Shown: positions 918 to 55,270 of the stretch, piece after piece
How the letters are laid out: the number at the start of each line of letters is the position of its first letter
Numbering within the stretch: the stretch's first letter is position 1
Assembly (NCBI RefSeq): GCF_020520425.1
Contig: NC_079487.1
Location: forward strand, 113,618,141 to 113,682,140
Length of the DNA: 64,000 nucleotides
Origin: Spinacia oleracea
Taxonomy: Eukaryota; Streptophyta; Magnoliopsida; Caryophyllales; Amaranthaceae
Direction: 5' to 3'
Notes under the pieces: model-generated
Told to the model about the DNA's origin: nothing
Databases searched by the model: none
What the model saw: the letters and a program-made list of their open reading frames with translations, nothing else
Translations under genes and position numbers: made by a program

Positions 918-3900
918 GTCGATCATCCTGTATTGATCACAGAATGCCCATGCAATCCAGTTTCATCACGCTGTAGAATGGCAGAGCTTCTTTTTGAGTC
1001 ATATGGAGTTCCTTCTGTGGGTATGGGAACCACCTATTACCTAATATTTCTGTGTCTCCTTCTATCAAGGAAGTCTTAAACGGTGATTGTATAGTGATCG
1101 ATTGTATTGTCCATCTACCTGAACATCATCGCTGTTCATCTTAGTTTCCTGATTACTATCCACTCAATGTAGACTGTCACTGTTGATACAAAAACCTTTA
1201 GATTGTTTCTGTGGCAGTATGGGCCGTATGGCAAAGCCTAACCCTTTGTCCTGAGTTTTCTGATTACTTCTTCCCCTTTTTCAGCGTTTGGTGTTGATGC
1301 TGCTTTTAGCTACACGTATAATCAGCGACTTGGTATTTGTGATAAGGAGGGCCTTGCTGTTTGCAGCGGATTCAATACCAGCCATGTCATACCAGTAAGT
1401 GTCCCTGTCTTCGTCATTCTAGTTTTATGAAAACATGTAAAGTCATTTTTCTACCACTGAAAACTTGTAGTTGAATCTATGTGTTATGATTGGTTATAGT
1501 GAGTATCTTGGCAGATGCTTGAAAAAGATTCACCTATGAGAGTGGCTGAGTAACCAACATGTGGAAGATGCTGTTTTGGGAGGGATGTCACATGATGCAA
1601 CATTACCATGTGAAAAGATCATGTTTTGCTATAAGTAATTGACTGTTTGTACATTTATAGAGAATGAGTTTTGTTACTCCCACGATTCCAAATAAGTGCC
1701 CAATTATCTTTCTTATTCAATATTACATGTTATTACTACTGCTTGTTAGTCTTAAAACTACCTATTCAGTAGTACTAAAAAAGTTCTGGGTACAATGCAC
1801 AGTCCCTTTATCAACATGCATAAGTTTAAAAGACTTAATTTAGGATGGACGGCGTATGAAAAGCAGAAAATTGAGTAATTGATGATAAAAGTCCTTTCTG
1901 CCCCCCTGCTGCCTGATCATAGCCACGCTTCTGTGCCTGCCATGGTAGGAGACTGGCACTCACCAGGCGGACATTCCATCCCATCTTTTCTAATTTCCTT
2001 TGAGAGGCTTGGTAAAACTTAATGTGTAACTGATATTATTTTCTTTAAAAGCACTAACCTAGGCACAAGTGCAACTAAAATGGCCATTTGAGGTTTCTAG
2101 TTTCGGATGTCTAGAGTTATATGCACAAGATTTTTTTCACACCTTTTTAATTAGGAAAATTTTCACTTCGGGTGCCTGAGGTTTGATATAGTTCCAGTTT
2201 AGGTACCTCAAGTTTAGATAATTCCATTTTAGGTGCCTCAACTTTGCAAGTTGTTCCATTTCGGGTAGCTCATCCCTAATATTTTTTAAGTTTTTTTTTT
2301 TAAAATTTCTTTTAATTAAGGCAAATTGCCGAAACAAACCTTTTCGGTCTAATTTTGTGAGAAATAACATTTTATAATTTTTCTGCAAATTCATACCTTA
2401 ATTTTTTTTTTTTTTTGGCAAGAAACAACCTTACTCCTCTTTAAGGCGGCATACTCATACCTTATTAACTTTTTTTGGCAAGAAACAACCTTAATCCACT
2501 TTTAGGCGTTGACCGACATTTCCCGCGTTGATTGTGGCATGCCGGCCACGTGTTTTTTTTGTGTTTTTTGGAATATTTGCCAAAACGTACCTTTTATATG
2601 TTTGATTTTGCAAGAAACAACACTTTATGATTTTTTTTGCAATTTCAAACTCGAAAAGATTTTTTTTTGCGAGAAACAACCTTTGTAACCTTTTATTGCG
2701 AAGATGATTTTATTTATGTTGTGTTATGTCATTTCAAGATTCACATTGAATCAATGAAGGAATGAAAGAATTGAACCTATTATTTTGTTATGATTTGTTC
2801 TGATTGTCTCTCTTAACCTGTTGAGCTCCCCCTTGTTCATTTGCCCTTTTATGCCTACCAACCATTTTCTTGTAAGGAGAAGGAAGTGGTTCTGGGCAAG
2901 GTGTGACTTTCAATTGGTTCTGGTGTGACTTTCAATTGGTTCTGGTGTGACTCTGTAGGTGGATAAACCTTGCATATTTTTGTATCTTAGTTTTAAAAAG
3001 TGCGAAGCCCACCGAAGCGTAAAAGGGCCTGGGAGCTTAAGCGAAGCGCACACTTTTCGTAGGCGAAGCGCACCCGAAAAGAAATAATAAAATTTTAAAA
3101 GATCAGAAAAGATGGAAAGAAAAGATGAAAAAAAAGAGAAATCGAAAAGATGAAAGAAAAATTCATAATCCGTTTTCAAAACCCCCCAAATATTCTCTTA
3201 AAAAAAAAAAGAAATCACGTGATCACGTGGCTTTATTTTTTAATTAAAAAGAAGGGTCTATTGTGCCCAGGAAGCGCGAATGTCGCTAGGCTTCGGCTGA
3301 CACAAGCGTTCTTCTGTGAGCTTCCGAGCTTCCAGGGATTTAAGCGCGCTTTTTAAAACTAAGATTTGTATATGGTATGCATGGTGAATGAAATGCCTAT
3401 AGTTAAGTTCTATTTTCTCTTTTGGATGCATGCCATGGCGGCTAGCAACGAATACCTGTAACAACCACATATCTTTGTTTCCATATTTACAACAAATGTC
3501 TTAATGATTTACTTTAAATTCATGGAGGTCAACCTTGTTAATCCTCATGTAGTCATGTTACTCATTTCTTCTAGACCCCTATGAGTTGTATCATTTTAAT
3601 TATAGATAGCATAATGACCCCGTTAAAGCTCTTCAACCCTTCTCTTTTACTAAAAACCTTTACATAACATTTCGTCCTCCTAATCCACTCCATCAACTAG
3701 CTAGAGTATTAATTTTCCTTTGCATCCCTCAAACATATTATTGAAACTCTCATAGCAGTCGTTGAGAAGCATACCAAACTCATGTTCTCTGACATCTAGC
3801 ATGTTGAAATACTTTCGAAATAGTTAAAGGCCTCCAGATTAAGTTCATTTATTGTCTCTATGTAAGTTTTGAAATGATTCTAGCTAGCACGATAAGAAAA

Positions 3901-6900
3901 AAATTAAAAACAATCTTCATCACAATAAAATCTAAGGTTGTTTCTCGCAAAAAAATCTTTTTATGTCTGAAATTGCCATTTTTAAAAATAAAAGGTTGTT
4001 TCTCGCAAAGCCAAATATAAAAGGTTCAAATATTCCAAGAAAAAAAAGACGCACGTGACCGACACGCCATGGTCAAAGCTGGAAAAGACTCGGTCTACAC
4101 CTGAAAATGGACTAAGGTTGTTTCTCGCAAAGTATTTTTTTAAGGTCCATCGAAAGTGAAAATTTTCCTTTTAATTAATTCTCATCATGAATGTAAGAAA
4201 AAAAAAAAGACGTGGCGCAACTGTTCTGTTTGTCATGTTCTGAGCCTAATAATGTCACTGATTCACTGTGGAGACTTCTGGGGAGAAAAGGAGTGATACT
4301 TGATTTTGGTTTCCTATCATTCTCCATTGCTCATTTGTTTAGTGCCGGGATTAGGGTAAAATTGTATGAAATTAGGAATGCTTGCATATTTAATATATTT
4401 TGCCTGATCTTTTGAACGTAAGCGGTAAGCTGTATTATTGCTTATAAAATTCTTTAGCTATAAAAGAGCATCAAAGTTCTTGCACTGTATCTGATTGATG
4501 ATAGCCACTCTTCAATTTCTGCTGAAGTGCTGATGCTTTCTGTAACCGTGCCTTCAGTTTGTTGAAGGAGAGCCGGTTTTTGAAGCGTGCTGCCGAAGTA
4601 ATGTTGGTGGTTACCATGTTACTGATTACATGAAGCAGCTTCTTTCTCTAAAATATCCTCAGCACATGTAAGCATTTTGCATTTTATGGTTATTCTCGTG
4701 TTTACAAGATAGCTTTCTGGTTGACTTGTTTTCTTTTCATGTCATTTGTGACAGGGCTTTTCTTACATGGGAGAAAGTTGAAGACCTGAAGATGGAACAC
4801 TGTTACATTGCTCAGGACTACAGTTCAGAGGTTAAATTGTTTCAGGTAATATGGTTCTCTTTTTCTTTACAGGTTTCCTACACTAGTTTTTGCCTCTACG
4901 GAAGTCATAAATACATATATATTTCTTTTTGTAATTGAAACAGAACAAAACTAAAGAAGCCGAAGAAAAGACTAGGTGTTGGCAACTTCCATTTACCCCC
5001 GCACCAGTTGAGGAGCAACCTTCTGCTGAGGAGATTGCAAGAAAGGCTGCTTACAAGGAGAAACAAGGTCAACGATTGCGGGAAATGGCTGAGTCAAAGA
5101 GGGCATCACGAATTAACGAATTGGAAAATGAGTTGCGTGGTTTGGATTTTCTTCTGAGGCAGGTGGAGAAAGTAGATGATGATAGCGTTCCTGAATTTCT
5201 TTCAGATACTGGCTATTTGTCTAAACAGGAAATAGAATCTTCTATTTCTAAAGTAAACCAATCTTTGCGAAGAACTAAGCGTGAACAAGTTGAACTGGAG
5301 GAGAAGGCAGAGGCAGCAACAGCTGAAAAGTTTCCACTAGTTGATGTTCCTGATAACATGCTGACTCCAGAGCAGGTTAGCTTTAGTGTTATGAACTGTT
5401 CGTGCTACATTAGTTGTTATGTTGGACTTATCTTGTGGCATAAATTGAAATCTGAAGGGATTTCAAATTTCTGACATGTAGTGTTTTGAACTTTGGTACC
5501 TCTTAAATCCATTGTTTGCTGGTTTAGCTATATGGTCAAATGATTTTTTCGGAACAATGCACTTTTTAATTGTATTCAGGATCCTGCTATCAGGGTTGCT
5601 GCTTATTATAGACCAGTTGATCTCGATGCTGTTGATCTTTCGTATTTGATTATTTGTATTCACTGTTGCCTGTTCTTTGGTTGTAGCTCAAGGAGAAAAA
5701 GAAGCAGATCTTTCTCAAGACTACAGCTGAGGGCCGTCAGCGAGCTAGACAAAAACGTGCTGAAGAGGAACTACAAAGGGAGAAGCATAATCAACTAGAG
5801 GAAGAAAAGCGTTTGTATGTTGCTACCTTTCTTTCTTATTTTTATGTTTGCCTTTGGAAGGCGTAAATGGATGGTTGAGTTTAAGCTGATGCTACATTAA
5901 AATATTACAGTGTCATCAATAAAATATTACCTATCTGAGCAATAGAAAACTAACTTCCTTATTACTTGCCTTTTAGTCTCTGCAAGGTGGCTAGCTGTAA
6001 TACTGTTATTACTGTTGCATTCCTTAGCAACATGGATCTACGAAGTCTGGTAGGCTTCACTTACAGTATGGCATTAAATAAGCTTTGATAATCCAAAATC
6101 TGTATTATAGAGCTAGGACAAGAATAGGAGTTTTAGGTGGTTTCTATCCATGCATTCTTCTGTTTATTTATTTGTGGAAGCTTGCTGAAAGCATTATGCT
6201 TGACTTAAACCTTAGCCTAATTAGTCATAGCTAAGTTAGTTAACCAAGTCTATAGGAAGTTCCATACTGTAAGTGACTTCTAAAGCAATCTGTACATCCT
6301 TGCCAGCCTGGGGACTGCGGTTGTGTTAATGTCTGCTTGGATCTGAATCCATCAGAGAGGATTAATGGAGGCTGCCACCTTAATCCCTTTGTGTACTCTT
6401 CTAAGGATGTGTTGTGTTTCTCCTTTAAAATTTGTCGACCTTTTGATTTTGATGACCCTCTAAGCCAAATATGTTTTAAATAGCCTTTAAAGTAGTTGAA
6501 GAACAATTATGGAGACTCTTGTCTGAGAAAGATTAGACAGGTTTATGGCAGATGATGCATGGGTCTCTCTATTTCCGTGCTTCGAGGTTATCCATTTTCC
6601 CATTTACCGATCTGATCATGCTCCCATAATGCTAAAATATGGGACGGATAACCAGAGACAGAGGGGTGAGAGACCTTTTCGGTTCGAAGCTATGTGGCTA
6701 TCCAACGAGGATTGTGGTCGAGTGGTCTCACGTGCATGGAATTGCTCGACGGGTGATGATATAGTAACAAGAATAGCCAATGTTGCAGGCAATCTCACTT
6801 CTTGGGCAGCCGACACTTTTGGGGCAATTAAGAAGAAAATAAAGGAGGCTGAGAAGAGACTAAAAAGTCTACAAAACAGTAGACATGATGCTACGATGCT

Positions 6901-9900
6901 GGCTTATTGTAAGAGTGTGGCGGAGGAGCTTGATGAGTTGCACCGGTTAGAGGAGTCCTACTGGCATGCGCGGGCTAGGGCAAACGAGCTACGAGATGGA
7001 GATAAAAACACAAAATATTTCCATCATAAAGCAAGCCAACGCCGGAAACGGAACAGGATTGGAGGGCTCAAGGATGAGAATGGCGAGTGGAAGACTAAGC
7101 CAGAGGAGCTCGATGGAATTATCACAAAATACTTTGAGTGTCTATTTGCTACAAGCAACCCTACGGGTATGGAGGAGGCGATGGAGGGACTAGAGAAGAG
7201 GGTTACGGATGAGACGAATGTTTGTCTTGACACGGAGCCGTCGAGTGATGAGGTTCGTGATGCTTTTTTTCAAATGCACCCCAATAAAGCTCCAGGGCCG
7301 GACGGGATGCATGCGTTATTCTTCCAGAAATTTTGGGGAGTTCTAGGGGCGGATGTTGTGAGATTCGTGAAGGCTTGGTGGAAGGGGGAGGTGAGTTTAG
7401 GTTCGGCTAATCGTACGTGTATAGTACTAATACCAAAATGCAATGAACCGAAGAATTTAATGGAGTTCCGGCCAATTAGTTTGTGCAATGTGCTATACAA
7501 GATTGTGTCGAAGATGCTTGCAAACAAAATGAAACCGATGTTGGAATCCATTATCTCTATTGAGCAAAGCGCCTTTGTACCCAAACGCCTCATTACCGAC
7601 AATGCCCTAGTGGCATTTGAGATTTTCCATGCAATGAAAAGGCGGGGGGAAGGTAAGGATGGTACGGTAGCTATGAAGCTAGACATGAGTAAGGCGTACG
7701 ACAGGGTGGAGTGGAGTTTTTTGGAACGGGTGATGCAAAGGATGGGTTTCAGTGATTCGTGGATAGCAAGGATTATGGGGTGTTTAAACAGTGTTACTTT
7801 CTCGTTTAAGTACAACGGTGGTATATCGGGTGAGTTGGTTCCGACGAGAGGCCTCCAGCAGGGGGACCCGATCTCCCCATATTTATTTCTCATATACGCG
7901 GATGCTTTCTCGGCTCTATTAAGTAAAGCAGCGAATGAGAAGTTGATAAATGGTGCTCGGGTGTGTGCTAGGGGTCCAAGAGTCTCGCACCTATTTTTTG
8001 CCGATGATAGTATTCTCTTTGCTAGGGCAAATTTGCAAGAATGTTCTAAAGTTGCTGATATTATCAGTAAATATGAGAGAGCATCCGGTCAGAAAGTTAA
8101 TCTGAGCAAAACCGAAGTTGCCTTTAGTAAGTGTGTGAAGGTGGATAGAAGAAAAGAGATTGTGGAGACCTTGGGGGTTCGAGAGGTTGATAGACACGAG
8201 AAATATTTGGGGTTGCCCACGATCATTGGGAGGTCCAAGAAAGCGATCTTTACGTGCCTCAAAAAGCGGATTTGGAAAAAATTGCAAGGGTGGAAGGAGA
8301 AACTTTTGTCACGCCCCGGGAAGGAAATCTTAATCAAGGCGGTGGCACAAGTAATCCCCACTTATATGATGAGTGTCTTTAAGATACCGGATGGCTTGAT
8401 CGATGAAATTCACTCTATATTAGCACGTTTTTGGTGGGGTGACAAGGAATTAGGGAAGAAGATACATTGGCATCGGTGGGAGGCTCTATGTTTACCAAAA
8501 TCTATGGGCGGAATGGGTTTTCGGGATTTAAGGTGTTTCAACCAAGCACTACTTGCAAAACAATGCTTCCGGCTGAGCATGGACAATGGGTCCCTATTAA
8601 CCCGTGTCCTAAAGGCGCGGTATTATAAGCATTCAAACCTGGTCGAAGCAAGGAGGGGTTATGACCCAAGCTATACTTGGAGGAGTATGTGGGGGGCGAA
8701 ATCCCTATTGCTCGATGGGCTAAAGTGGCGAGTGGGGAATGGGTTATCAATCAAGGTTTGGGATGAGGCTTGGCTTCCCGGGAATGGAGCTCACCTTGTT
8801 CCAACGCCAAAGGAAGATAGCAACATGGAGTCAAGAGTGTCGGACCTAATTGATTTTGAGAACCAGTGCTGGAGAGACAATGTGATAAAGGAGGCATTTG
8901 TTGAAGAGGAGCAGAAGCTGGTGCGAACCATCCCCCTCTCGAGGTCCTGGCCGTGTGATTCGTATTATTGGTGGCCGACGAGTAATGGAATGTACAACGT
9001 ACGGTCAGCATATTGGCTCGGTATGCTAGGACACACACGTACATGGGAGCTGAATTTTGGGGCAAGGGAATCGGATATGTGGTCGTGGGTGTGGAGGCTT
9101 GATGGGCCACCTAAGCTAAGCCACTTCATGTGGCGTGCCTGCAAAGGAAGCCTAGCTACAATGGGGGTGTTGTTTAGACGTCATATACGACAATCTACGG
9201 AATGTAATGTCTGTGGTGCTCCTGATGAGTCTATCCTGCATACACTTTTTGAATGCAAACACGCACAAACGATATGGGCGAGTAGTGAGTTTGTGGATTA
9301 CCTTTGCTGAGAGATTTGTGTGGTTTGCTAGCAAGCTATCGAAGGAGAAGCTACGTCTGTTTGCTACCCTTGTGTGGGCATGTTGGTGCTGTCGCAATAA
9401 GGCAGTCTTCGAGGGAGGGGAGTTCGAGCCTGCGCAGGTGGCTGCTGGTTTTGTTCGACTTGTGAACGGTTACAGGCGGTACAATGAGAGGGTGGCGGTA
9501 CACGCAACTGGCCCGCAACTGGCCCTGTGGTCACGTCAGCTAGCAGTTGGAACCCACCACCACATGGAACAGTGAAGGTTAATGTAGACGTCCATACTTT
9601 CAGCACTGGCGTGGGTGTGGGAGTGGTGATCAGAGACTACAGTGGAGCGATACTCGTAGCTGCGGTGAAGCGCACTGACGCAGCTTGGTCCGCTGAGGTG
9701 GCAGAAGCTTCGGCGGCTCTTTATGGGGCTGCTCTGGCCAAGAGGCTCGGATACGACAAGGTGATTCTTGAATGTGATGCCATGAACGTTGTTCGAACGA
9801 TTGACAAAGGTGAAGAAGGTGCAGCTCCGATTTTCCTATTTTATGAGGATATCAGGAAGGTCATATCACATTTCTTGTTCTTTAAATGTATCCATGTTAG

Positions 9901-12015
9901 GAGAGGAGGCAATACAGCCGCCCATTTAGTAGCAAGATGGGAAGCCGATGTTGGTTCGGAACGCATATGTATGGGTTGTTTCCCCCAAAGTTTAACAACT
10001 TTGGCAGAACTTGATTTAGTTTAATATATTTGCCCGCTTTTTCCCTCAAAAAAAAAAAAAGTAGTTGAAGAACAATTGTCACCCTTTCTTGAAAGCGGTG
10101 GAAGCAGTGATGTAAACATACTTACCCTTAGTTACCATACAAGTTTTTGAGCCCCACCACGTCCATTTATACTCATCAATCCCTAAACATCTTTCTACTC
10201 TTGCAAGAAGTAATCTTGATCTTGCTAGTGTGTAACATAGTTTTCATCAAGTTTTCTAGCCAATTGAATATTAGTTGATTTACCACAATAAAACTTGTCT
10301 GCTGGAGGAATATTACCTTTCATAAGAGCCTCACGAGCTACTCAAGCTTGGCTTGAGATTTTCACGAGCCAAAAACATCTGCATGACCTGAAGGCTCTTG
10401 AACCCATTTGATATTTGTTCTATTTTTGTAATTAACACAAAAGCTTTTGCACAATACTAACGAGATCTCAAAATATTAGCAAAATCATAGCTATAATATG
10501 TCATGTTACAAGGTAGTACGGTTGAGTTTTAGGCTGACTTAATACTGAAACTTAAGCTCAAATTTGCTCAAGACTTAGTTAGAGATCAAAGTGTTATGAG
10601 GTGAACCGAGCAACCCCAAGCCCGAGCTTGGATCAGCTCTTATCACCCCTACCTTGAAGGATAATCTTCACCGTACAGCCGGTTGTACCTTGCAAGGTAC
10701 AACCAAAGGTATTTTTAGGCACGTGTGCTCACAAGATGCATGCAATGGGAAAAGAAATAGCCTTGGGTTTACCATGCTCATGGTACATATAAAATTGCCA
10801 CCTTGAAGCATAGTACAAAGTTGTCTCACTGTAATGTTCATGTGGATCTAGTTTCCCTATTAATCTGTTATTTGTCTCAAAATTTCGACAAGCTAAAATT
10901 TGTACAGTTGATTTTATACTTTCTTCACCAAAGATAAAGAAATGTATTTCTTTGTGGCAAATTTCATAATTACTGCACTCCATGGTCTTTTTTTTCGACT
11001 GCTTGTCATATTCTGCACTTCTATTGCTATTAGAATTTTGAATAAATCCATGTTTCTAATTTCCATCTTTTATGTAGGGAAAACCCAGAGGCTTATTTAG
11101 AGCAGTTGCGAACCAAATACAAAGGGCTTTTAGAAAAAGTAGAACAGAAGAAACTGTTAAAGTCAAATGGAAACAATTCAAATGGAAATCCTACATCTGG
11201 TGGTGTCGGCCGTGGTGAGAGAATGAATGCTGCTAAGAAAGAGAGAATGCGTCTTTTAACAACAGCTGCTTTTGATCGGGGGAAAGGGGAAGACACTTTT
11301 GGTGCAAGAGATGAAGATTGGCAACTCTACAAACTGATGAGTAAAGATAATGACGATGATGATGAAGGTCCAGATGAAGATGAGGCAGAGTTGATACGTA
11401 TCTCTTCTAGACTCCAGGCAAGTCAACTATCATAAGCAGTCAAAGTAGAGTAAGATTTAAAATTGGATTTTGCTGCAGTTGTGTCATACCATTTCTTTTT
11501 ATGTATTGCAGGATATTGACCCAACTTTCACTGCAAAACCAGAATCTGGATTACGCCAAACTGCTGATGTTCCTCGCTCTCGTACTCTTACCCAGGAGGA
11601 TTTCCAGATTTCAATGGCGGTTGAAAGGTTCCGATGCCCAGAAATTTTGTTCAACCCAAATATAGTTGGGATTGACCAGTCTGGATTAGATGAAATGGTT
11701 GGGGTTTCTCTGAGGAGGTTTTCACCTCAGGGCAAAGGTTTGGAGGAGAAGTTAACTAGCTCTATCCTTTTGACTGGAGGAAGTAGTCAATTCTCGGGGT
11801 TGAGTGACCGTTTGGAAGCTGGAGTTCGCATGATTCGGCCATGTGGGACCCCTATCAGGGTGATTAGGGCAAGTGATCCTATTTATGATGCATGGCGAGG
11901 GGCTTCTTCATATGCTGCTTCTTTGCATTTCCCGCAGCAAACTTTCACTAAAATGGATTACGAAGAAAAAGGGGAAGATTGGCTTCGGACTTACAAGTTC
12001 AGGTATTCGCTATGA
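918..12015 (+). CDS. ARP5: Actin-related protein 5 (INO80 complex subunit), 5'-partial
   Basis: Eight exons join in phase: 918-1020, 1285-1394, 4558-4667, 4755-4845, 4944-5375, 5687-5814, 11078-11417, 11512-12015 (stop). They give about 605 residues; plant ARP5 is ~720, so ~118 N-terminal residues lie before the window. Diagnostic stretches are HPVLITEC, MAELLFESYGVP, EAEEKTRCWQLP, a long Glu/Lys/Arg-rich helical insertion (exons 5-6 here), LLTTAAFDRGKGEDTFG, an acidic run DNDDDDEGPDEDEAE, and the actin-fold C-terminus with SSILLTGG and AWRGAS. ARP5 is a nuclear subunit of the INO80 chromatin remodeller, acting in transcription and DNA repair (family knowledge). The intron after exon 11078-11417 has a GC donor (CAG/GCAAGT at 11415-11423). 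The 5.3-kb intron 5815-11077 holds a LINE and the 3.2-kb intron 1395-4557 holds a Mutator-like element, yet the reading frame is intact, so the gene looks functional. Confidence 0.95.
2884..2958 (+). repeat. Short tandem repeat, ~22-bp unit
   Basis: Three near-identical units around 'ttctggtgtgactttcaat' sit side by side inside the Mutator-like element; the first carries a small insertion. No function is evident. Confidence 0.6.
2986..3363. mobile_element. Inverted-repeat MITE nested in the Mutator-like element
   Basis: The ends CTTAGTTTTAAAAAG and CTTTTTAAAACTAAG are perfect inverses. The flanks TTTTGTAT and ATTTGTAT match at 7 of 8 bases, suggesting an 8-bp hAT-type duplication. The interior is built of 'gcgaagcgcac'-like words and has no coding capacity. 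Superfamily assignment is tentative. Confidence 0.6.
6509..10060 (+). mobile_element. 5'-truncated LINE (non-LTR retrotransposon) in ARP5 intron 5815-11077
   Basis: An 18-bp direct duplication (agtagttgaagaacaatt, 6491-6508 and 10060-10077, sharing its first A with the poly-A) brackets the element, which ends in a poly-A run at 10048-10060. The 5' end starts inside the endonuclease domain, so it is 5'-truncated in the normal target-primed way. It is inserted in the same orientation as ARP5. The identical flanks indicate a fairly recent insertion. Confidence 0.95.
6527..10024 (+). pseudogene. LINE ORF2 remnant: endonuclease end, reverse transcriptase, zinc-knuckle region, RNase H
   Basis: A long open frame (to a stop at 9308-9310) begins with the end of the APE-type endonuclease (ERLDRF, then RSDHAPIML). 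It runs through a complete reverse transcriptase, with APGPDGMHALFFQKFW, EFRPISLCNV, QGDPISPYLF and the catalytic FFADDSILF, and then a zf-RVT-like Cys/His region. The frame shifts near 9300 and returns to the original frame near 9527. The RNase H domain follows to 10024, with VNVD and ECDA matching catalytic acidic positions. Just upstream, a TGA at 6524-6526 stands where related LINEs usually have Arg, a change that could come from CGA deamination. With no start region and two shifts it cannot make a full ORF2 protein. Confidence 0.9.
10078..11077 (+). other. Rest of the ARP5 LINE-bearing intron, 3' part
   Basis: This is AT-rich intronic DNA. Around 10590-10680 the words 'accccaagcccgagcttggatcagctct' resemble one end of a degenerate hAT-type MITE, but I could not pair it with a second end. 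The intron ends at the AG 11076-11077. Confidence 0.5.
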
Positions 12016-21225: not shown

Positions 21226-23595
21226 TTAGGAGGGCTCTTCATAGACAGGCTTCCAAGTTGTGAGTGCATAGACAATTCTACCCTTCCATCCCTGCAACAA
21301 CCAATGCCCGTCTTCATCAATGGAGTAATCTTTGTGATACACAGATTTCACCCTCTTTTTCGCCATATTCAATGTCTCGGGGTTTAAAGGTAGCTGTCTG
21401 AATCCAGCCCTTTCATTTCGGACTTGCCACTGCTTGTATGTCTCTGGCCTTTCTATCCTTTCTAAACCCTCACAAGCAATCACATTCATCGCTTGTCTCC
21501 CAAATATCTCTCTCTCAATCAATACCCTTTCTTCGATATCCCGTGGAAGATTAGTCTCAAGCAAATCAAACAGAGTTGAGAAATGAAAGAGAGCCTCGCG
21601 GAATCGAGTAATGAAAAAGGGGGAATTGAAAGCCCCGTTAACAACACCTTGTATGAAAATTTCTGGTTTTATCTGCTTTATGAGATTGAGAACCATATCT
21701 CTCGGACATTCAACCATTGCTGTTTCCTCGGGTACATATTTAAATCTGAACATGGAATTCACAACAAGTACCTCATCACTATCAATCTTGAGATCTTCAA
21801 CCGTAAGTGTTTCCCACTTCTTTGCAATAGCATTGAACTCGAATGTTATGCCAAAAGACTCAGCATAGTTCTTCAAGCGACGCCCTGTCTCCTCTACCCT
21901 TTTGGCAGGCCGAAACCCCGGTTGTGGATTATCAACTCCAGTAATACGAATTTTGGGGGGCCCACCAGGTCTTGATGAAAGGCGCTGAAATAGACAAGGC
22001 CATTGGAAACCATAGACTATACCAATGTCAATAATATGAAGTTGTGTTGCTTTCTCCGCCACCTCTGTAATCGCTCTATTACAGAAGAAATTTCCCATTT
22101 TCTTAAAAGGACATACGGCTAAAAACATATGGTAAGCTCTCAAGATATCAATAGCAGATGCAGGGCCAGTGAGAAGACAGCTATATATAGGAGTTCCAAC
22201 ACCAGCAAGGCGTGCCTCTAATCCATCTGCAAAATAGTGTGCCAGTCTTTGATTTCCATCTCCAGTTGGAGAAGAATATTGCCTAATTTGCCTAAGCAAG
22301 TCATTTGCATTCCTTTGATCATTTGATCCAACAGCTTGCGCACACAGGCTTAACAGGGATCTTAAATCTATTACTTCTCTCCTACTCCCTTGTCTCCTAC
22401 CACGTCCTCTGCCGCCACTACCAGACCCCTTTGGCTGACCATTTTGTGCGTTTTTGTTTAGTCCACTCTGTAAAACTTCCCGAAGGTCAGCATCATTTTT
22501 ACCTCCACTACACAATAACACCTTATCAAACATTTCTGATCTCATAACTGCCTCATCAGAAACATGAGAAACAGCTGACTGCTTATTCCCCCTTCTTTCC
22601 TCTGACTGCAATTCATCTCGATTGCGATGCTTTGTTCCACCCAAAACCTCTGCTGGAATCTCATTTTTATGTACATTTTCCAGCTTAACTACTGAATCAC
22701 GGGAAGAGGAGCTTCTATTCATCAAATCTTTGGACAAAATAAACTTTGGTAGAAACTTATTTGCTTCCTCAATCCCTTTGTGAAACTGCAACATCGACTG
22801 ACTATCATTGAATATCTCGGACACACTAAGGGCACTCACAGGAGATTCTGCTGTTGCATCCACCAAACCAATAGCATTACTTGCTAAGTTAAATGGTGAC
22901 TCATAGTGGTTCAATTGCATAACATCATATTGCCCCCCTGAATAATTCGATGAACTGTATGATGTTTGCAATGACAAGTTCGAGGAAGGTCTATTCGAGG
23001 AACTGAAAGATGTTTGCAATGACAAGTTCGGGGAAGGCACGGAAAAATCAACTATGGGTAAAGGGTTATATCCATAAGGGTAAACAGACCAATTAGGGTC
23101 TATGAAGCTGCTACTACTACTCGCTCCACTGTAAGCATCAGTGACAAAACTACTAACACCATTGACTTTCCAGTTATCATGCTTAATATGAGGCAAATTA
23201 TATTGGTTTTGTGGAGAAGGATACTGCTCCCCTAACACATCATACAATGTTTTCTCCGTTGCTTCAAGAGCTGAAGGCTCATGATATAGACGGGTTTTCT
23301 CTTCCTCGTCCTCTTCCATCAGAACTTGGGTGATGTACTTAAGTACAGCATCACTAAAATCATAATCTTCATGAAGGGATGACTCAGTATCCTGACCCTG
23401 ACCTACCGACGGCAAAACCACATTCAAATTTGGGTTTGGGGGGATCAATGAAGGATTTTCAAAACTCAAATTCAAATTGGAATTGTGTAATTTCGATGTA
23501 TTAACAAGATTGTTACTTGCCAAAATCGGAACCTTTTGGTCACTGAACTTGATTCGATGCAAAGTCCCATATAATTCCTCTAATTGTGGATCCAT
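21226..23595 (-). CDS. GRAS transcription regulator, LISCL (SCL14/SCL33-like) subfamily
   Basis: A single coding exon of 789 residues. I chose the start MDPQLEELYG at 23595 because the upstream in-frame codons lie across a likely 5'-untranslated intron and code for an unrelated hydrophobic stretch. The N-terminal half has the acidic LISCL motif DYDFSDAVLKYITQVLMEED (77-96) and EKTLYDVLGEQYP (114-126), then Ser/Asn-rich sequence and an Arg/Gly-rich linker (SGGRGRGRR, ~393-401). The GRAS domain (about 409-789) shows the first Leu heptad (DLRSLLSLCAQAV), the VHIID block (LHIIDIGIVYGFQWP, 519-533), the PFYRE-like region, and the SAW motif with WLLQGWKGR near the end. Family members are nuclear co-activators; SCL14 works with TGA factors in xenobiotic stress responses. 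The exact orthologue within LISCL is not decided. Confidence 0.95.
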   Translation of the reverse strand: MDPQLEELYGTLHRIKFSDQKVPILASNNLVNTSKLHNSNLNLSFENPSLIPPNPNLNVVLPSVGQGQDTESSLHEDYDFSDAVLKYITQVLMEEDEEEKTRLYHEPSALEATEKTLYDVLGEQYPSPQNQYNLPHIKHDNWKVNGVSSFVTDAYSGASSSSSFIDPNWSVYPYGYNPLPIVDFSVPSPNLSLQTSFSSSNRPSSNLSLQTSYSSSNYSGGQYDVMQLNHYESPFNLASNAIGLVDATAESPVSALSVSEIFNDSQSMLQFHKGIEEANKFLPKFILSKDLMNRSSSSRDSVVKLENVHKNEIPAEVLGGTKHRNRDELQSEERRGNKQSAVSHVSDEAVMRSEMFDKVLLCSGGKNDADLREVLQSGLNKNAQNGQPKGSGSGGRGRGRRQGSRREVIDLRSLLSLCAQAVGSNDQRNANDLLRQIRQYSSPTGDGNQRLAHYFADGLEARLAGVGTPIYSCLLTGPASAIDILRAYHMFLAVCPFKKMGNFFCNRAITEVAEKATQLHIIDIGIVYGFQWPCLFQRLSSRPGGPPKIRITGVDNPQPGFRPAKRVEETGRRLKNYAESFGITFEFNAIAKKWETLTVEDLKIDSDEVLVVNSMFRFKYVPEETAMVECPRDMVLNLIKQIKPEIFIQGVVNGAFNSPFFITRFREALFHFSTLFDLLETNLPRDIEERVLIEREIFGRQAMNVIACEGLERIERPETYKQWQVRNERAGFRQLPLNPETLNMAKKRVKSVYHKDYSIDEDGHWLLQGWKGRIVYALTTWKPVYEEPS

Positions 23596-23602
23596 TTGCA
23601 CA

Positions 23603-24062
23603 ACTATTGCAAAAACACAACATGAAAAGTCACAAAATGAAGATAAAATCAGCAACTTTTTTTTAAGGTAATAACCTTCACACAAGATCGCAACCCTAAT
23701 GAGTAATGACAGAATAAGATCAATAGTTCAAGACATTTAGTTCACTTCAGCTGAAAAAGTTACCAAATTCAACATATAGCTTCCAAAAAAAAAAGAACAG
23801 ATCAGGAAATCAACTATTTTTCACACAAATCACAGCTTAAACCCAATAAAGTTTAGTACAAGTAGACAAACCCAGTCCAAAATTCAGCATATCTCATACA
23901 AATCTAAGCTTAAAACCCAATAAAATGAGCATAAACACTTGAACAAGGAAATACCCAATTCAAAATTTCAACTAATTTCATACAAAACTCAGCTCAATAC
24001 TCAATATACTCAATAACATTAAAATACAGCAAAAAAAATTCTTGAGAAAATGAAAGAAATAC
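23603..24062 (-). other. Probable intron in the 5' leader of the GRAS gene
   Basis: On the minus strand a strong donor (CTCAG/GTATTT, junction at 24062/24063) and an acceptor (GCAATAG, around 23604) bracket AT-rich sequence just before the start codon. LISCL genes commonly have one 5'-leader intron. The upstream leader exon (about 24063-24200) is CT-rich on the coding strand. The exact acceptor is uncertain. Confidence 0.6.
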
Positions 24063-25166: not shown

Positions 25167-25191
25167 TACAAAGTAGAAGTAGTAACTTAAT

Positions 25192-25332
25192 CGGATTTTT
25201 CACCAAATGCCCCTGAGGTTTACTTTAATGCACCAAATACCCCTAAACTTTCCAAAATGCACCAAACACCCCTGACGTATGCAATAATATCATTAAATGC
25301 CCTTTTGTCTGACGGACGTTAACCCTCCGTTA
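25192..25332 (+). repeat. Left terminal inverted repeat (141 bp)
   Basis: Matches the inverse of 28366-28506 by eye at every position. Composed of three ~29-bp units followed by a GACGGACGTTAACCCTCCGT tail. Confidence 0.92.
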
Positions 25333-25673
25333 CCATGTTTTTACCTTGTTGCCCTTACTTGTCCTTTCTGGCGCCATATCAAAAAAGAAAAGAAAAAATT
25401 CAAAACCTAACTTCCCAACTTATTCCTCGACATTTCTCTCTGTTCTCTTACACCATTAGAGAGCACTTGAGTACCAAACCAAAGAGAGAGAAAGATCGAA
25501 ATTCGCTGGGATTTGTGTAAAACAACTCGCAATAGTTAGTCGAAGTAAATCCCCACGAAAAGATCGACAATTTGGTCCAAAAATCTGCAGTTTTCGCGAG
25601 TCCTACAAAAGTGGGTGCAAGGAGAGCAAAGGACTGGAATTTGTGGCTTCAACTTCATCAAAATTGTGTCAAG

Positions 25674-25896
25674 GTTAGTTCACTCAATTCGTTTCTTGTT
25701 CTTGGTGCTATTTTTTGCGAATTTTGCTTTGATTAGGGTTAGGGTTTTGCTAAAATCGTGATTTTTCCATGAGATGGGTTAACTTGAATTTTGGGGTGTT
25801 AATGGTAAAACATAGTGTCTGGTTGTGCTTTGTTGTTTTGCCTAATGATTTAGTTCATTAATTTGAATTTTTGTGTTGTGTTTATTGTTTGTATAG
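25674..25896 (+). other. Probable 5'-leader intron of the PB1-like gene
   Basis: Donor AAG/GTTAGT at 25671-25679 and acceptor TATAG/GATGG at 25892-25901 place an intron ending one base before the ATG. Its T-rich 3' half fits a plant intron. Confidence 0.65.
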
Positions 25897-25897
25897 G

Positions 25898-27172
25898 ATG
25901 GTCGCAATTTGGTTGTTATGTCATTATAATGATCGGAATTTTGATGTGAGGGTACAAGATACTGATGAAACGAACTACATGGATTTGGTTGATGACTTGT
26001 TTGATGATTCTATTAAGCAAGATGTTCTGATTCCCGATTTATTTAGATTGTTTTATGTTAATCCTAGTACGAATAAAAGAGTAGAATTGTTGAATGATGT
26101 TGGTTTGATGGGCATGTGGGGTTTATTTAAGCGCACAGATACTGTGGAAATATGGATAGAGAAGGCAAATGAGAAGGAAACTTCAATCCAATTTAGGACT
26201 GCAGTTAAGAAAAGGAAGGATAGGAAGGAAAGGAAGGTTGCAGAACTTAGAAGGAAAGCTGAGGAGTTTGAGAGGGAGAGGGAAGAGGAAAGGAGAAGGT
26301 TAGAAAGGGAGGCTGAGATTCAAAGGGATTTGGAGGAGCAATTGGCAAACACAGTGGCAGTTGAGGTGCCTGTGTATGATGTTGAGGATTTAAGCGTAGA
26401 GTACGTACGTGTTTACAGCTCACAACATGCTGACTGCTTTTCCCCGGGAGGTTCCCAGCCACCAAATACACAAAAAGAGCCTTCACCACCACCAAGAGAG
26501 CCCTCACCACCACCAAATAATCCATCACCACCACCAAGAAGTCCCTCACCACCACCAAATAATCCATCACCACCACCAAGAAGTCCCTCACCACCACCAA
26601 ATAATCCATCACCACCACCAAGAAGTCCCTCACCACCACCAACCTCACCACAGACACAACCACAGCAACAACAACAACAGACAGAACATCAGCAACAACA
26701 ACAAACAGAACATCAACAACAACAACAAACAGAACAACAGCAACACCAACCCACAGAACAGCAGCAACAACATCAAACAGAACACCAGCCAGATCAGACA
26801 CCCCCTCCTAACAGGGCTGAGTTAAACAAAGGGAGGGGTTTCAGAATTTCCAGAAGTCATGCTAAGAAGACGGGTGAGTTTGTTCCTAAGAAGAGGGGGG
26901 GAAGGCCTGCTGGTTCAAGGGTGAGGAAACCCACTGCATACAATGTGGAGGAAGAGGAGCAATGGGATGATGAGAGTGATGATGAAAATTTTGAGGAGAG
27001 TGAGAGTGATAGTGAAACTGGTTTCAACTCCGACGATTTAATTGACGAAGAAATTGAAGAAGATGAAGAACAAGATGTTCTTAAGGAGGTAATTTCTGAG
27101 AGAAGTTTTGAGGATCATTTAGATGGGAGTAATAAGCTGGATAATTTGTATGCAAATGGGAAAGTTGCATAA
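25898..27172 (+). CDS. Transposon-borne PB1-like, AT-hook protein with Pro/Gln-rich and acidic regions
   Basis: 424 aa from the ATG at 25898, chosen because the upstream in-frame codons fall in a likely leader intron. Residues 1-92 resemble the PB1-like fold found at the N-terminus of plant MuDR-class transposases (YMDLVDDLFDD, LFRLFYVNPSTNKRVELL, GMWGLFKRTDTVEIWIE). A charged, probably coiled-coil stretch (102-149) is followed by Pro-rich repeats of a 14-residue unit (195-249), a Gln-rich tract (254-298) and an AT-hook-like KKRGGRPAGSRVRKP (331-345). The tail (350-393) is strongly acidic. No transposase DDE domain or SWIM finger follows. I infer a DNA-binding or regulatory remnant of a transposase gene, or a captured host gene. 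It runs toward the minus-strand zinc-finger gene, 233 bp apart. Confidence 0.75.
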   Translation: MVAIWLLCHYNDRNFDVRVQDTDETNYMDLVDDLFDDSIKQDVLIPDLFRLFYVNPSTNKRVELLNDVGLMGMWGLFKRTDTVEIWIEKANEKETSIQFRTAVKKRKDRKERKVAELRRKAEEFEREREEERRRLEREAEIQRDLEEQLANTVAVEVPVYDVEDLSVEYVRVYSSQHADCFSPGGSQPPNTQKEPSPPPREPSPPPNNPSPPPRSPSPPPNNPSPPPRSPSPPPNNPSPPPRSPSPPPTSPQTQPQQQQQQTEHQQQQQTEHQQQQQTEQQQHQPTEQQQQHQTEHQPDQTPPPNRAELNKGRGFRISRSHAKKTGEFVPKKRGGRPAGSRVRKPTAYNVEEEEQWDDESDDENFEESESDSETGFNSDDLIDEEIEEDEEQDVLKEVISERSFEDHLDGSNKLDNLYANGKVA

Positions 27173-27405
27173 CTAGAAGTAAGTTTAGGATTCAGTTTAG
27201 TATTTCTGTTTTAAAGCTTAGGTTTATTTTGAAAAACAACTTAGGTTGTGGCACATTTTGGCATTTTTTTGTAAAGCTACCCACAACTTGATGTTCGGTT
27301 TATTTTGGAAACAAACTATTTCAGTTACGAGTTCAAAGACTTGCATATTATTGATAAATGAAATTCATGTGCTCGTGCCATTACAACCATCATTGTTTGT
27401 CTTGA

Positions 27406-27783
27406 TTACTTCTTTACTACAAACATTAGACACAAAAACATTACAATTCCTATTTTAATTGTTGCAGCTTGGAATTTTTTGAGCTCTTTCACTCTTTTCT
27501 TCAGTTTCTTCAGTTTGTCACTTATATTGTTGTTGTCTTCCGATGTTCCCTCATACTCTATATTGCTCTGTTGCTGTTGGTGTTGTTGATTTTGGTGTAG
27601 AACACTTCCTTTGCACCACATAAAATGGTTACAAGGATCACACTTGTAATATAGCCTCTGTGGATTTTTGGATGTCTCGGAGCTTTTTATTGCACATTTT
27701 TTGGAACAAATAGGACAACATTTGTTTGGAACAAGTATGTATGAAAACATATTGGATGATGATGTATTGGAACAAGAACTCAT
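27406..27783 (-). CDS. GRF-type zinc-finger protein with coiled coil and hydrophobic tail
   Basis: 125 aa. A GRF zinc finger (23-56) has the ligand pattern C23-x2-C26 and C48-x2-C51, the family signature NPQRLYYKC and the closing HFMW. GRF fingers bind single-stranded nucleic acid in known DNA repair proteins. A basic coiled coil (KKLKKRVKELKKF, ~91-103) leads to a short hydrophobic segment (IGIVMFLCLMFVV, ~110-122) near the C-terminus that could be a tail anchor. The ATG at 27783 is the first in frame. Upstream the same frame stays open as Pro/Gln/Asn-rich sequence apart from one TAA (27862-27864) but offers no start codon. The gene reads inward from the right end of the transposon and is convergent with the PB1-like gene. 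Confidence 0.75.
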   Translation of the reverse strand: MSSCSNTSSSNMFSYILVPNKCCPICSKKCAIKSSETSKNPQRLYYKCDPCNHFMWCKGSVLHQNQQHQQQQSNIEYEGTSEDNNNISDKLKKLKKRVKELKKFQAATIKIGIVMFLCLMFVVKK

Positions 27784-28175
27784 GCTGTGTTGTTGTTCTT
27801 GCTGCTCTGTTGTTGCTGCTTCTGTTGTTGATGCTTCTGTTGTTGCTGCTTCTGTTGTTTGTTATTGTTGTTGTTGTGTTGTGTTGTTCTTGCTGCTGGT
27901 GTTGTCTATTCTTGTTGTTGCTGTGTTGTTCTTGCTGCTGGTGTTGTGCTGTGTTGAAGTCCTTGATGCTGCTGCTATTGGTGTTTGTTCTTGTTGCTCT
28001 GCTGTCTTGTTATTCTTGTTGTTGCTGCTGCTGCTGTTGTTGTTTGTTCTTGCTGTTGCTGCTGCTGGTGTTGCAGGGTTCTGCTTGTTGTTGGTGCTCC
28101 TGTTGCAGTGTTCTGGTTGTGCAGGTGGGGGTTTGGGGTGGACTGTTTGTGCAGTTGGGGGGGATTGGGGTTTAG
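27784..28175 (-). promoter_or_regulatory. CAA/CAG-rich leader of the GRF-finger gene
   Basis: On the coding (minus) strand this ~390-base stretch is made of CAA, CAG and ACA triplets with almost no ATG and few G, an unstructured leader composition. It may instead be a former Pro/Gln-rich N-terminus of the protein. The far end (28080-28175) is C-rich on the same strand. Confidence 0.45.
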
Positions 28176-28202
28176 GGCAGTGTGGTGTTGTTGTTGGGTA
28201 TG

Positions 28203-28212
28203 GTATATATAA
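28203..28212 (-). promoter_or_regulatory. TATA box candidate for the GRF-finger gene
   Basis: TATATATA on the minus strand, between the right terminal repeat and the CAA-rich leader, is well placed to start a transcript near 28175. The motif also reads as a TATA box on the plus strand. Confidence 0.45.
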
Positions 28213-28365
28213 GGGAAATTAGTGTATGGGTGACTGCAACGGCTATATTATTCAAATTCAACGGCTAGTTTTTGGAAAAAAAATTACCAAACCTCAGGGG
28301 TATTTGGTGCTTTTTACCAAACCTCAGGGGTATTCGGTGCATTATGTTTTAACGAACTAACTGCC

Positions 28366-28506
28366 TAACGGAGGGTTAACGTCCGTCAGACAAAAGGGCA
28401 TTTAATGATATTATTGCATACGTCAGGGGTGTTTGGTGCATTTTGGAAAGTTTAGGGGTATTTGGTGCATTAAAGTAAACCTCAGGGGCATTTGGTGAAA
28501 AATCCG
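28366..28506 (-). repeat. Right terminal inverted repeat (141 bp)
   Basis: Inverse of 25192-25332. Further reiterated units immediately inside it (to about 28288) make the right subterminal region longer than the left. Confidence 0.92.
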
Positions 28507-28515
28507 TAACTTAAT

Positions 28516-54008: not shown

Positions 54009-55270
54009 CGGATTTTTCATGAAATGCCCCTGAGGTTTGTCTTAATGCACCAAATACCCCTAAACTTTCCAAAATGCACCAAATACCCCTAAGGTTTAAT
54101 ATAAATACACAAAATGCCCAAAATGACTATTTTCCGTTAACTCCGTTAACTTATCCGTTAACTTTAACTTTAATTTAATTTAATTTTTCTCTTTTCCTTT
54201 TAATTTCTTCTTTTTTCATTTGTTTTTCTCTCTCCCCCCTTCCTTCTTCCCTGTTAAAAATGGCAGCCAATTTTTCTGGGTTGGAAGCACCATGACAGCT
54301 CTTCTCTTCCTCACCACCACCACACACCGCCATGCTAACCCCTTCTCTTCCTCACCACCACCACCCCACACCGCCACCGCCACCGCTAGACAAACACATA
54401 CATCGATTTTCCTCTCTCAAAATCCAGATCCCAAAAAATTGATCCCCAAATCAGTAATGGGGGATTTTAATCAACCATTGTTGCCAGTTGCCTTGACCGT
54501 AACGGAGGGGGAAGTGAGGGGAAGGGAAACGACGCCGGCGAGGAAGGCGAAGTGGAGTTTGGTGGCGGCGGCAGTGGGGAATGAGGAAGGTGGGGGAAGT
54601 GAGGGGGAGGGAAACGCGGGTTTGGTGGTGGCGACAGCAGTGGGTAAGGTGGGGGAGGGGAGGGAAACGCCGCCGGTGAGGAAGGGGGAGTGGGGTTTGA
54701 TGGTGGTAGCATGGCGGTGGTGGGGTTTGGTGGTGGCGGCATGGCTGCATTCTCTCTCCTCTAATTCGTTGATTCTGTGAGGATGGAGGTGGTTGCAAGG
54801 ATGGAGCTATGGTTGGTGTTGATAATGGAGAGAGAGGAATTAGGGGTTTGACATGGTGGTGGTGGGACTTGAGGAGACAGAACAAAGGCAACAACAAGGT
54901 TGGAATGGAGAATCCAAATTTTTTTGGGGTAATTATTTTTTTCAGACAATAGTTAATTAATTTAATTAAGGATTAATTAATTTAATTAAGGATTAGTTAA
55001 TGTAATTAAGGTTAATTAATATAATTAAAGGTTAATTAATGTAATTAAGGGTTAATTAATATAATTAAGGGTTAATGTTAGGATAAATAAAGAAAACGGT
55101 TTATTAAGGGCAAAAATGTAAACATACGCTAACGGGGACTTAACGTCCGTTAGCCTTGTGGGCATTTTGTGTATTTATACTAAATCTCGGGGGTATTTGG
55201 TGCATTTTGGAAAGTTTAAGGGTATTTGGTGCATTAACACAAACCTCAGGGGCATTTCATGAAAAATCCG
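54009..55270. mobile_element. Mutator-like element sharing ends with the 25192-28506 element
   Basis: The 9-bp duplication TTTTTTTTC (54000-54008 and 55271-55279) flanks ~120-bp inverted repeats starting CGGATTTTTCATGAAATGCC. The repeats use the same 'caccaaatacccct' units as the larger element but differ from each other at several positions, so this copy is older. The interior holds CT-rich sequence, a 'ggtggtggcggc'-type G-rich minisatellite (about 54500-54750) and a 'ggttaattaatataattaa' tandem repeat (54950-55075). A 186-codon open frame (54220-54780) has only low-complexity sequence and I do not call it a gene. Confidence 0.88.
54950..55078 (+). repeat. ~21-24-bp AT-rich tandem repeat
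   Basis: About six units of 'ttaattaatataattaaggg' in tandem within the older Mutator-like element. Confidence 0.85.

Follow-up and report, generated by a model that had tools for sequence, protein, structure and literature searches.

The window considered here, a 64,000-nucleotide stretch of the Spinacia oleracea genome (contig NC_079487.1, positions 113,618,141 to 113,682,140 of the forward strand), harbors at its positions 25192–28506 a transposable element with two convergent genes, one a shortened transposase gene and the other encoding a GRF-like zinc-ribbon protein. The element is complete, as a preliminary description of this DNA had proposed: a perfect 9-bp target site duplication (TSD), TAACTTAAT, flanks it at 25183–25191 and 28507–28515, and its 141-bp terminal inverted repeats (TIRs), at 25192–25332 (plus strand) and 28366–28506 (minus strand), are 100% complementary. 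Long TIRs together with a TSD of 8–11 bp define Mutator-like elements (MULEs), and the window element has both. Each TIR comprises three repeat units of 29–30 bp, which in the left TIR are of the CACCAAATRCCCCTRARSTTT type and begin at 25201, 25231, and 25260, the third with three mismatches; two further units, at 28289 and 28319, lie inward of the right TIR (28289–28339, minus strand). These units may represent putative binding sites. Between the ends, open reading frames (ORFs) at 25898–27172 (plus strand) and 27406–27783 (minus strand) converge in a layout like that of mudrA and mudrB, a likeness that the preliminary description had rightly drawn.

The ends place the element in a family. 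In the host assembly (894 Mb, 242 contigs), where all counts are lower bounds as only part of the candidates was scored and misses are expected, each of the 40 scored matches to the TIR was 100% identical over 141 bp (995 first-look candidates). The TIRs of the window element are therefore not a product of chance; by the same token, since the scored genomic matches are equally identical, TIR identity alone cannot date the window copy. A perfect 9-bp TSD was found at 18 of the 20 loci tested, with the boundary searched over about 40 offsets. A genomic search for further elements that combine these TIRs with both genes does recover them: four loci (L009, L010, L011, and L022) measure 5481–5493 bp, match both genes, and carry perfect TSDs. 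From left to right, these full copies of about 5.48 kb hold a transposase gene of several putative exons and a convergent GRF gene of 125 residues, and the relatives L020 and L049 likewise have a single pair of TIRs around a transposase gene and a second gene that converges on it. The layout is unchanged in L018, L019, L020, and L049, whose GRF proteins are 48–52% identical to that of the family, and relatives retain it over a range of 48–62% in GRF identity.

Comparison with these copies makes it very probable that the window element, which is non-autonomous, descends by internal deletion from a MULE family with two genes. Against the long copies it aligns in two blocks, element positions 1–1976 and 1970–3315, at 97–99.5% identity in L009, L010, L011, L017, L022, and L015 (the left block of L015 starting at 949), and it is shorter by 2155–2167 bases (about 2.16 kb) than five of the seven copies compared, the other two (L015 and L017) having size changes of their own. 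The junction lies at the heptamer AAAGTTG (27161–27167). In all seven long copies read, the left breakpoint is marked by AAAGTTG and the right one by AAAGCTG, which rules out a perfect 7-bp microhomology. Across the junction the window frame reads GKV, then a single A and a stop, where L010 continues as GKVVGSMPWG. The window copy consequently has no catalytic domain of its own and is not autonomous, its stop falling one codon past the junction. The truncation was encountered once: 1 of the 40 scored matches (109 candidates) to a 211-bp junction probe spans the junction, and that match is the window itself, while 37 stop at the left side and 2 start at the right side.

What the deletion removed can be read from the long copies. 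The left protein of the window (P0001) matches at least 137 genomic places (best 99 of 7321 candidates scored). At 21 of the places, with 98–99% identity over residues 1–423 or 2–423, the same frame extends over 705–728 codons, and at 19 of the 21 the match is free of stops. In the two loci read, L005 and L008, the frame runs on past residue 423, and the L008 exon scores 33 bits for PF03108 (DBD_Tnp_Mut, cut-off 25) and 41.1 bits for PF10551 (MULE, cut-off 27.6). Both domains exceed their cut-offs in L008, L019, and L020, and an ORF further along matches SWIM in L010 as well as in the relatives L019 and L020. A MuDR/MULE transposase is thus present in full-length copies and missing from the window copy through deletion; its complete layout, judged partly by eye, probably comprises an N-terminal domain, a linker, a MuDR DNA-binding domain, the MULE catalytic domain, SWIM, and a zinc knuckle distributed over several putative exons. 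The pair of genes is accordingly the remnant of a two-gene family, and the notion, put forward in the preliminary description, of an element type that lacks a transposase falls away given full copies that hold transposase and GRF gene together.

The left gene of the window copy (25898–27172, plus strand) encodes 424 residues, namely, family transposase residues 1–423 and one new residue before the stop. It comprises an N-terminal domain, a charged coil, and a Pro/Gln-rich and acidic linker. The preliminary description had seen in it a transposase-derived protein in which Pro/Gln-rich, AT-hook, and acidic regions replace the catalytic domain. The derivation from a transposase holds; the replacement does not, since the long copies continue into the DBD_Tnp_Mut and MULE domains, and the Pro/Gln-rich, basic, and acidic stretches are therefore an ordinary transposase linker. 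When the frame was shuffled piecewise, 2 of 2000 shuffles of its left part reached the observed open length, as did 135 of 2000 of its acidic part; repeats of 42 and 24 bp lie inside this ORF. A possible intron in the 5′ untranslated region, recognized by eye from its GT...AG ends, may occupy 25674–25896 (plus strand) just 5′ of the ATG.

The identity of the N-terminal domain is less apparent from similarity searches. Sequence and profile searches of Pfam, NCBIfam, and the Protein Data Bank (PDB) gave no credible match to it. A PB1-like consensus itself has no Pfam match, so that this comparison is uninformative on the PB1-like label of the preliminary description. A single-sequence AlphaFold model of the left protein has a mean predicted local distance difference test score of 43.3; in the Foldseek list obtained with the left protein a PB1 domain ranks fourth, at an expectation value (E) of 1.2, and carries no weight. 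Two PDB matches were rejected, that to troponin C, the best by profile (E of 0.022 and above), being given no weight, and that of residues 182–267 to ribosomal protein uS3 (E 0.00018) reflecting the composition of Pro-rich repeats.

The right gene (27406–27783, minus strand) encodes 125 residues and would fold into a zinc ribbon, behind which a long helix is predicted; its C-terminus is a hydrophobic tail. A GRF zinc-finger protein with a possible tail anchor had been suggested for it, and both the GRF likeness and a hydrophobic tail stand. PF06839 is matched at E≤0.01 by 5 of the 7 GRF proteins scanned, the window protein included (best E 0.00029). In an alignment of seven GRF proteins from four groups, 46 positions do not vary, including C23, C26, C48, C51, W56, C57, and an NPQRLYYKCD core. 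The best 19-residue Kyte–Doolittle mean of the window protein is 2.14, 2 residues from the C-terminus, and all four proteins measured, the window's among them, have such a tail (1.94–2.74, 2 or 3 residues from the C-terminus). Shuffling reproduced the observed open length in 7 of 2000 trials. Foldseek with the GRF model returned no match at E≤0.001, and no relative of the GRF protein or of the TIR unit was found in viral contigs. Upstream of the ORF, the window has a CAA/CAG-rich repeat tract (27786–28105), which reads like a 5′ untranslated region. Several of its periods (31, 59, 28, and 32) cannot be divided by three, in contrast to those of the repeats in the left ORF.

The GRF gene is paired with the transposase gene, most clearly among close copies. 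The GRF protein (P0002) matches 150 genomic places (best 150 of 859 candidates scored), and these were paired with all 137 and 141 matches of two transposase searches. A convergent transposase match lies within 6 kb of 40 of the 42 GRF matches at 94–100% identity (41 within 15 kb), of 8 of the 20 at 59–84% (9 within 15 kb), and of 15 of the 88 at 46–51% (17 within 15 kb); for the other 71 of these 88, there is no transposase match within 15 kb among the matches listed. Around none of the 150 does a transposase match in another orientation occur at a distance of up to 15 kb, again among the matches listed, and a crude density estimate puts the chance of a convergent-side transposase match within 6 kb at 0.002. 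The one near-identical GRF copy with no transposase match, L115 (C1:103796284), was found on reading to have transposase exons 2 and 3.

Substitution patterns point in the same direction. Between L018 and L019, synonymous divergence (dS) is 0.07 for the GRF gene and 0.06 for the transposase, with ratios of nonsynonymous to synonymous divergence (dN/dS) of 0.13 and 0.24; between L020 and L049, the corresponding values are 0.65 and 0.77, and 0.09 and 0.12. The matching synonymous divergence in these two element pairs argues that GRF gene and transposase have travelled together. For the window GRF gene and its 81% identical relative L035, dS is 0.37 and dN/dS is 0.25. Judging from these sequences, the GRF protein appears to have been kept under selection over the divergence of the subfamilies.

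Several observations weigh against this account, in respect of both the selection on the GRF gene and the origin of the deletion. Values of dS between subfamilies are mostly saturated and were left unused. On the youngest branch no constraint is visible, with 4.5 nonsynonymous and 0.5 synonymous differences between the window GRF gene and that of L010. In the group of GRF sequences resembling L019 (62 sequences, namely, 60 fetched together with L018 and L019), 46 are intact from methionine to stop, 6 are stop-free with the first codon outside the fetched stretch, and 10 have an internal stop; the 29 nonsynonymous, 16 synonymous, and 6 stop variants observed (distinct variants counted), against neutral expectations of 36.4, 11.3, and 3.3, amount to weak constraint at best. 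Among deletion copies, 13 have a GRF gene without a match to the catalytic exon and 2 show the reverse (one of them with a partial GRF gene at 79%), and some of the 13 may hold a catalytic exon beyond the matches listed. This retention is not evidence of selection, because a random-deletion model already places 78% of one-sided losses in the catalytic exon. The window GRF protein itself scores 18.0 bits against PF06839, under the gathering cut-off of 25.9. As for the junction, the two breakpoint heptamers agree at 6 of 7 bases and overlap exactly in TG alone (2 bp), and homology this imperfect lends little support to an interrupted-repair mechanism.

The origin of the window element can be pictured as follows. 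A deletion between the similar heptamers removed the catalytic part of the transposase and placed a stop one codon past the junction. Interrupted gap repair is a usual explanation for internal-deletion copies of transposons, and an interrupted repair of the transposon gap possibly left this one. Since both ends are kept, a full copy could presumably mobilize the element in trans. The element still encodes the N-terminal part of a transposase along with a GRF frame that is intact. The N-terminal fragment of 423 residues most likely arose as a mere by-product; if it paired with the full transposase, it may act as a weak inhibitor. In all of this there is nothing unusual about the window copy as a deletion derivative, and the interesting part is the conserved second gene.

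GRF fingers in repair proteins bind single-stranded nucleic acid. The proposal that the GRF protein binds nucleic acid and so assists transposition or integration, akin to MURB in MuDR, is drawn by analogy, and we hold the chances for and against it to be evenly balanced. Its main rival on the role of the gene, that it counters silencing as VANC of the Arabidopsis VANDAL elements does and takes no part in integration, strikes us as unlikely. Such second genes are known in MULEs (PMC6446971; PMC13317346), and the repeat units at the element ends could be their binding sites. VANDALs, however, are called non-TIR MULEs (PMC13317346), unlike the TIR-bearing spinach family, and we judge a hydrophobic tail odd for a chromatin factor.

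Somewhat less likely still is a GRF gene captured once and carried since as a functionless passenger. In its favor, constraint among close copies is slight or absent, and internal stops occur in 10 of the 62 L019-like copies, the majority of the copies having no detected full transposase. Against this stand the dN/dS of 0.09 between L020 and L049, both also with a transposase, and the positions, cysteines included, that remain invariant across four groups. We regard a more elaborate conjecture as improbable. In it, a widespread plant MULE lineage would possess a conserved GRF helper that combines a coiled coil with a membrane tail at its C-terminus; the helper would bind transposition intermediates in single-stranded form and anchor integration at the nuclear envelope or endoplasmic reticulum, and truncated transposases, that of the window among them, would brake the family by N-terminal pairing.

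We give even less credence to a regulator pair selected as such, with the truncated transposase repressing or steering autonomous copies and the GRF protein helping. The preliminary description had envisaged something of this kind, a transposase-derived regulator and a helper that ride on or control an autonomous relative. The left frame of the window copy is open up to the junction, the GRF gene is intact, and an N-terminal piece with a GRF gene also occurs at L116 (C4:44172266), L117 (C1:12563924), L023 (C4:104570049), and C2:41335496. Against the idea, the junction occurs once among 40 scored matches, so that no amplification of this truncation is seen; the breakpoints of L023, L116, and L117 differ from those of the window copy, and GRF retention fits the positional null. 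Finally, a Pack-MULE, with host gene fragments caught between TIRs, would suit the missing catalytic domain and the frequent gene capture in MULEs (PMC6446971) and is next to impossible here, since both genes are family genes of full copies with transposase domains, which refutes it for the left gene; the GRF gene may nonetheless be of ancient host origin.

The internal-deletion derivative in the window has counterparts of various sizes elsewhere in the genome. L023 (3694 bp), L116 (2483 bp), and L117 (2899 bp) each have a 9-bp TSD and breakpoints other than those of the window copy. Right-half elements of about 1.82 kb (L047:3847–5673, L048:360–2186, L110, L111, L112, L113, and L114) carry the last transposase exon, with SWIM and knuckle, together with the GRF gene and long TIRs, and 6 of these 7 have perfect TSDs. 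They lack a full transposase and belong to the L019-like group, in the 46–51% class of GRF identity. The last transposase exon is open over 194 residues in L112 and 223 in L047, and its presence, SWIM and knuckle included, rules out L047 and L048 as GRF-only elements. At its left end, L047 carries the right end of L019 in inverted orientation.

The ends themselves are variable. TIR sequence differs by subfamily around a constant outer CGG, the ends of L010, L020, L047, and L049 being CGGATTTTTCACC, CGGATTTTTCATG, CGGATATTTCATG, and CGGAAATTTCATG, respectively. In L049 the terminal repeat unit is also arrayed within the transposase gene, between two coding ORFs (L049:3090–3257), and this array matches both the right end of L049 and a second element of the window. 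That second, non-autonomous element, at window positions 54009–55270, has TIRs of 115 bp (94%) and a 9-bp TSD, TTTTTTTTC. Its ends are 80–85% identical to those of the first element, and they are the only part of it that matches the seven family loci compared; its ORF at 54220–54780 has no Pfam match. Elsewhere, the window holds a reverse transcriptase with zf-RVT (6545–9310), an actin-like exon (11470–12015), a GRAS-domain protein in an 819-codon frame (21226–23685), and a multicopper oxidase (58700–59695).

The spinach family bears on what second genes do in Mutator elements. Here, a GRF second gene with a zinc-ribbon motif is recognizable across several subfamilies of one genome, and in the measured pairs the selection on it resembles the selection on the transposase. 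Given the many near-identical two-gene copies that stand beside deletion derivatives, the need for the second gene in transposition becomes directly testable.

A number of MULEs with genes beyond the transposase have been described, the known extra genes including mudrB, vanB, vanC, mutB, and Abermu ORFR (PMC6446971; PMC9168764). MuDR resembles the spinach family as a MULE with two oppositely read genes (PMC9168764). Deletion derivatives of MuDR that keep only mudrB are known (PMC8224964), and Mu5 is described as derived from MuDR by deletion (PMC3276141). For the proposed helper role the closest precedent is MURB, which is required for insertion in maize (PMC9168764; PMC8224964), and mudrB is reported, in the portion of PMC3276141 available, from Zea only. 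The spinach family differs in that its second gene encodes a GRF-like zinc ribbon, MURB being compared here by description only. VANDAL/Hiun elements (vanA, vanB, and vanC) are similar as MULEs with extra genes of their own, one of them anti-silencing (PMC6446971); they are non-TIR (PMC13317346), whereas the spinach element has TIRs, and VANC too is compared by description only. A GRF gene in VANDAL/Hiun is not mentioned in the available portions of PMC6446971 and PMC13317346.

A further comparison is that with the Abermu (Hvu_Abermu) MULEs, which are found in grasses and a few other plants and carry a transposase gene (PMC9168764). Many Abermus add an oppositely read ORFR, of unknown function and with a ratio of nonsynonymous to synonymous substitution (Ka/Ks) below 1, so that transposase gene and oppositely read second gene are combined as in the spinach family (PMC9168764). 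ORFR shows no similarity between distant Abermus in the portion of that article available, whereas the spinach GRF gene is recognizable across subfamilies, the two being set apart here by description; the term GRF has 0 occurrences in the main text of PMC9168764. With the GRF zinc ribbon of PF06839, the window protein shares the cysteine pattern and the NPQR..Y.KC core and differs in its score under the gathering cut-off and in the predicted helix and hydrophobic tail that follow. Among the matches listed from a search of the open-licence PubMed Central literature, no paper was found that connects MULEs with GRF zinc fingers or with a PB1-like domain, and none that describes a GRF gene as the second gene of a MULE. 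Within that literature, and as far as could be seen, the GRF-bearing family of spinach constitutes a new version of the two-gene MULE.

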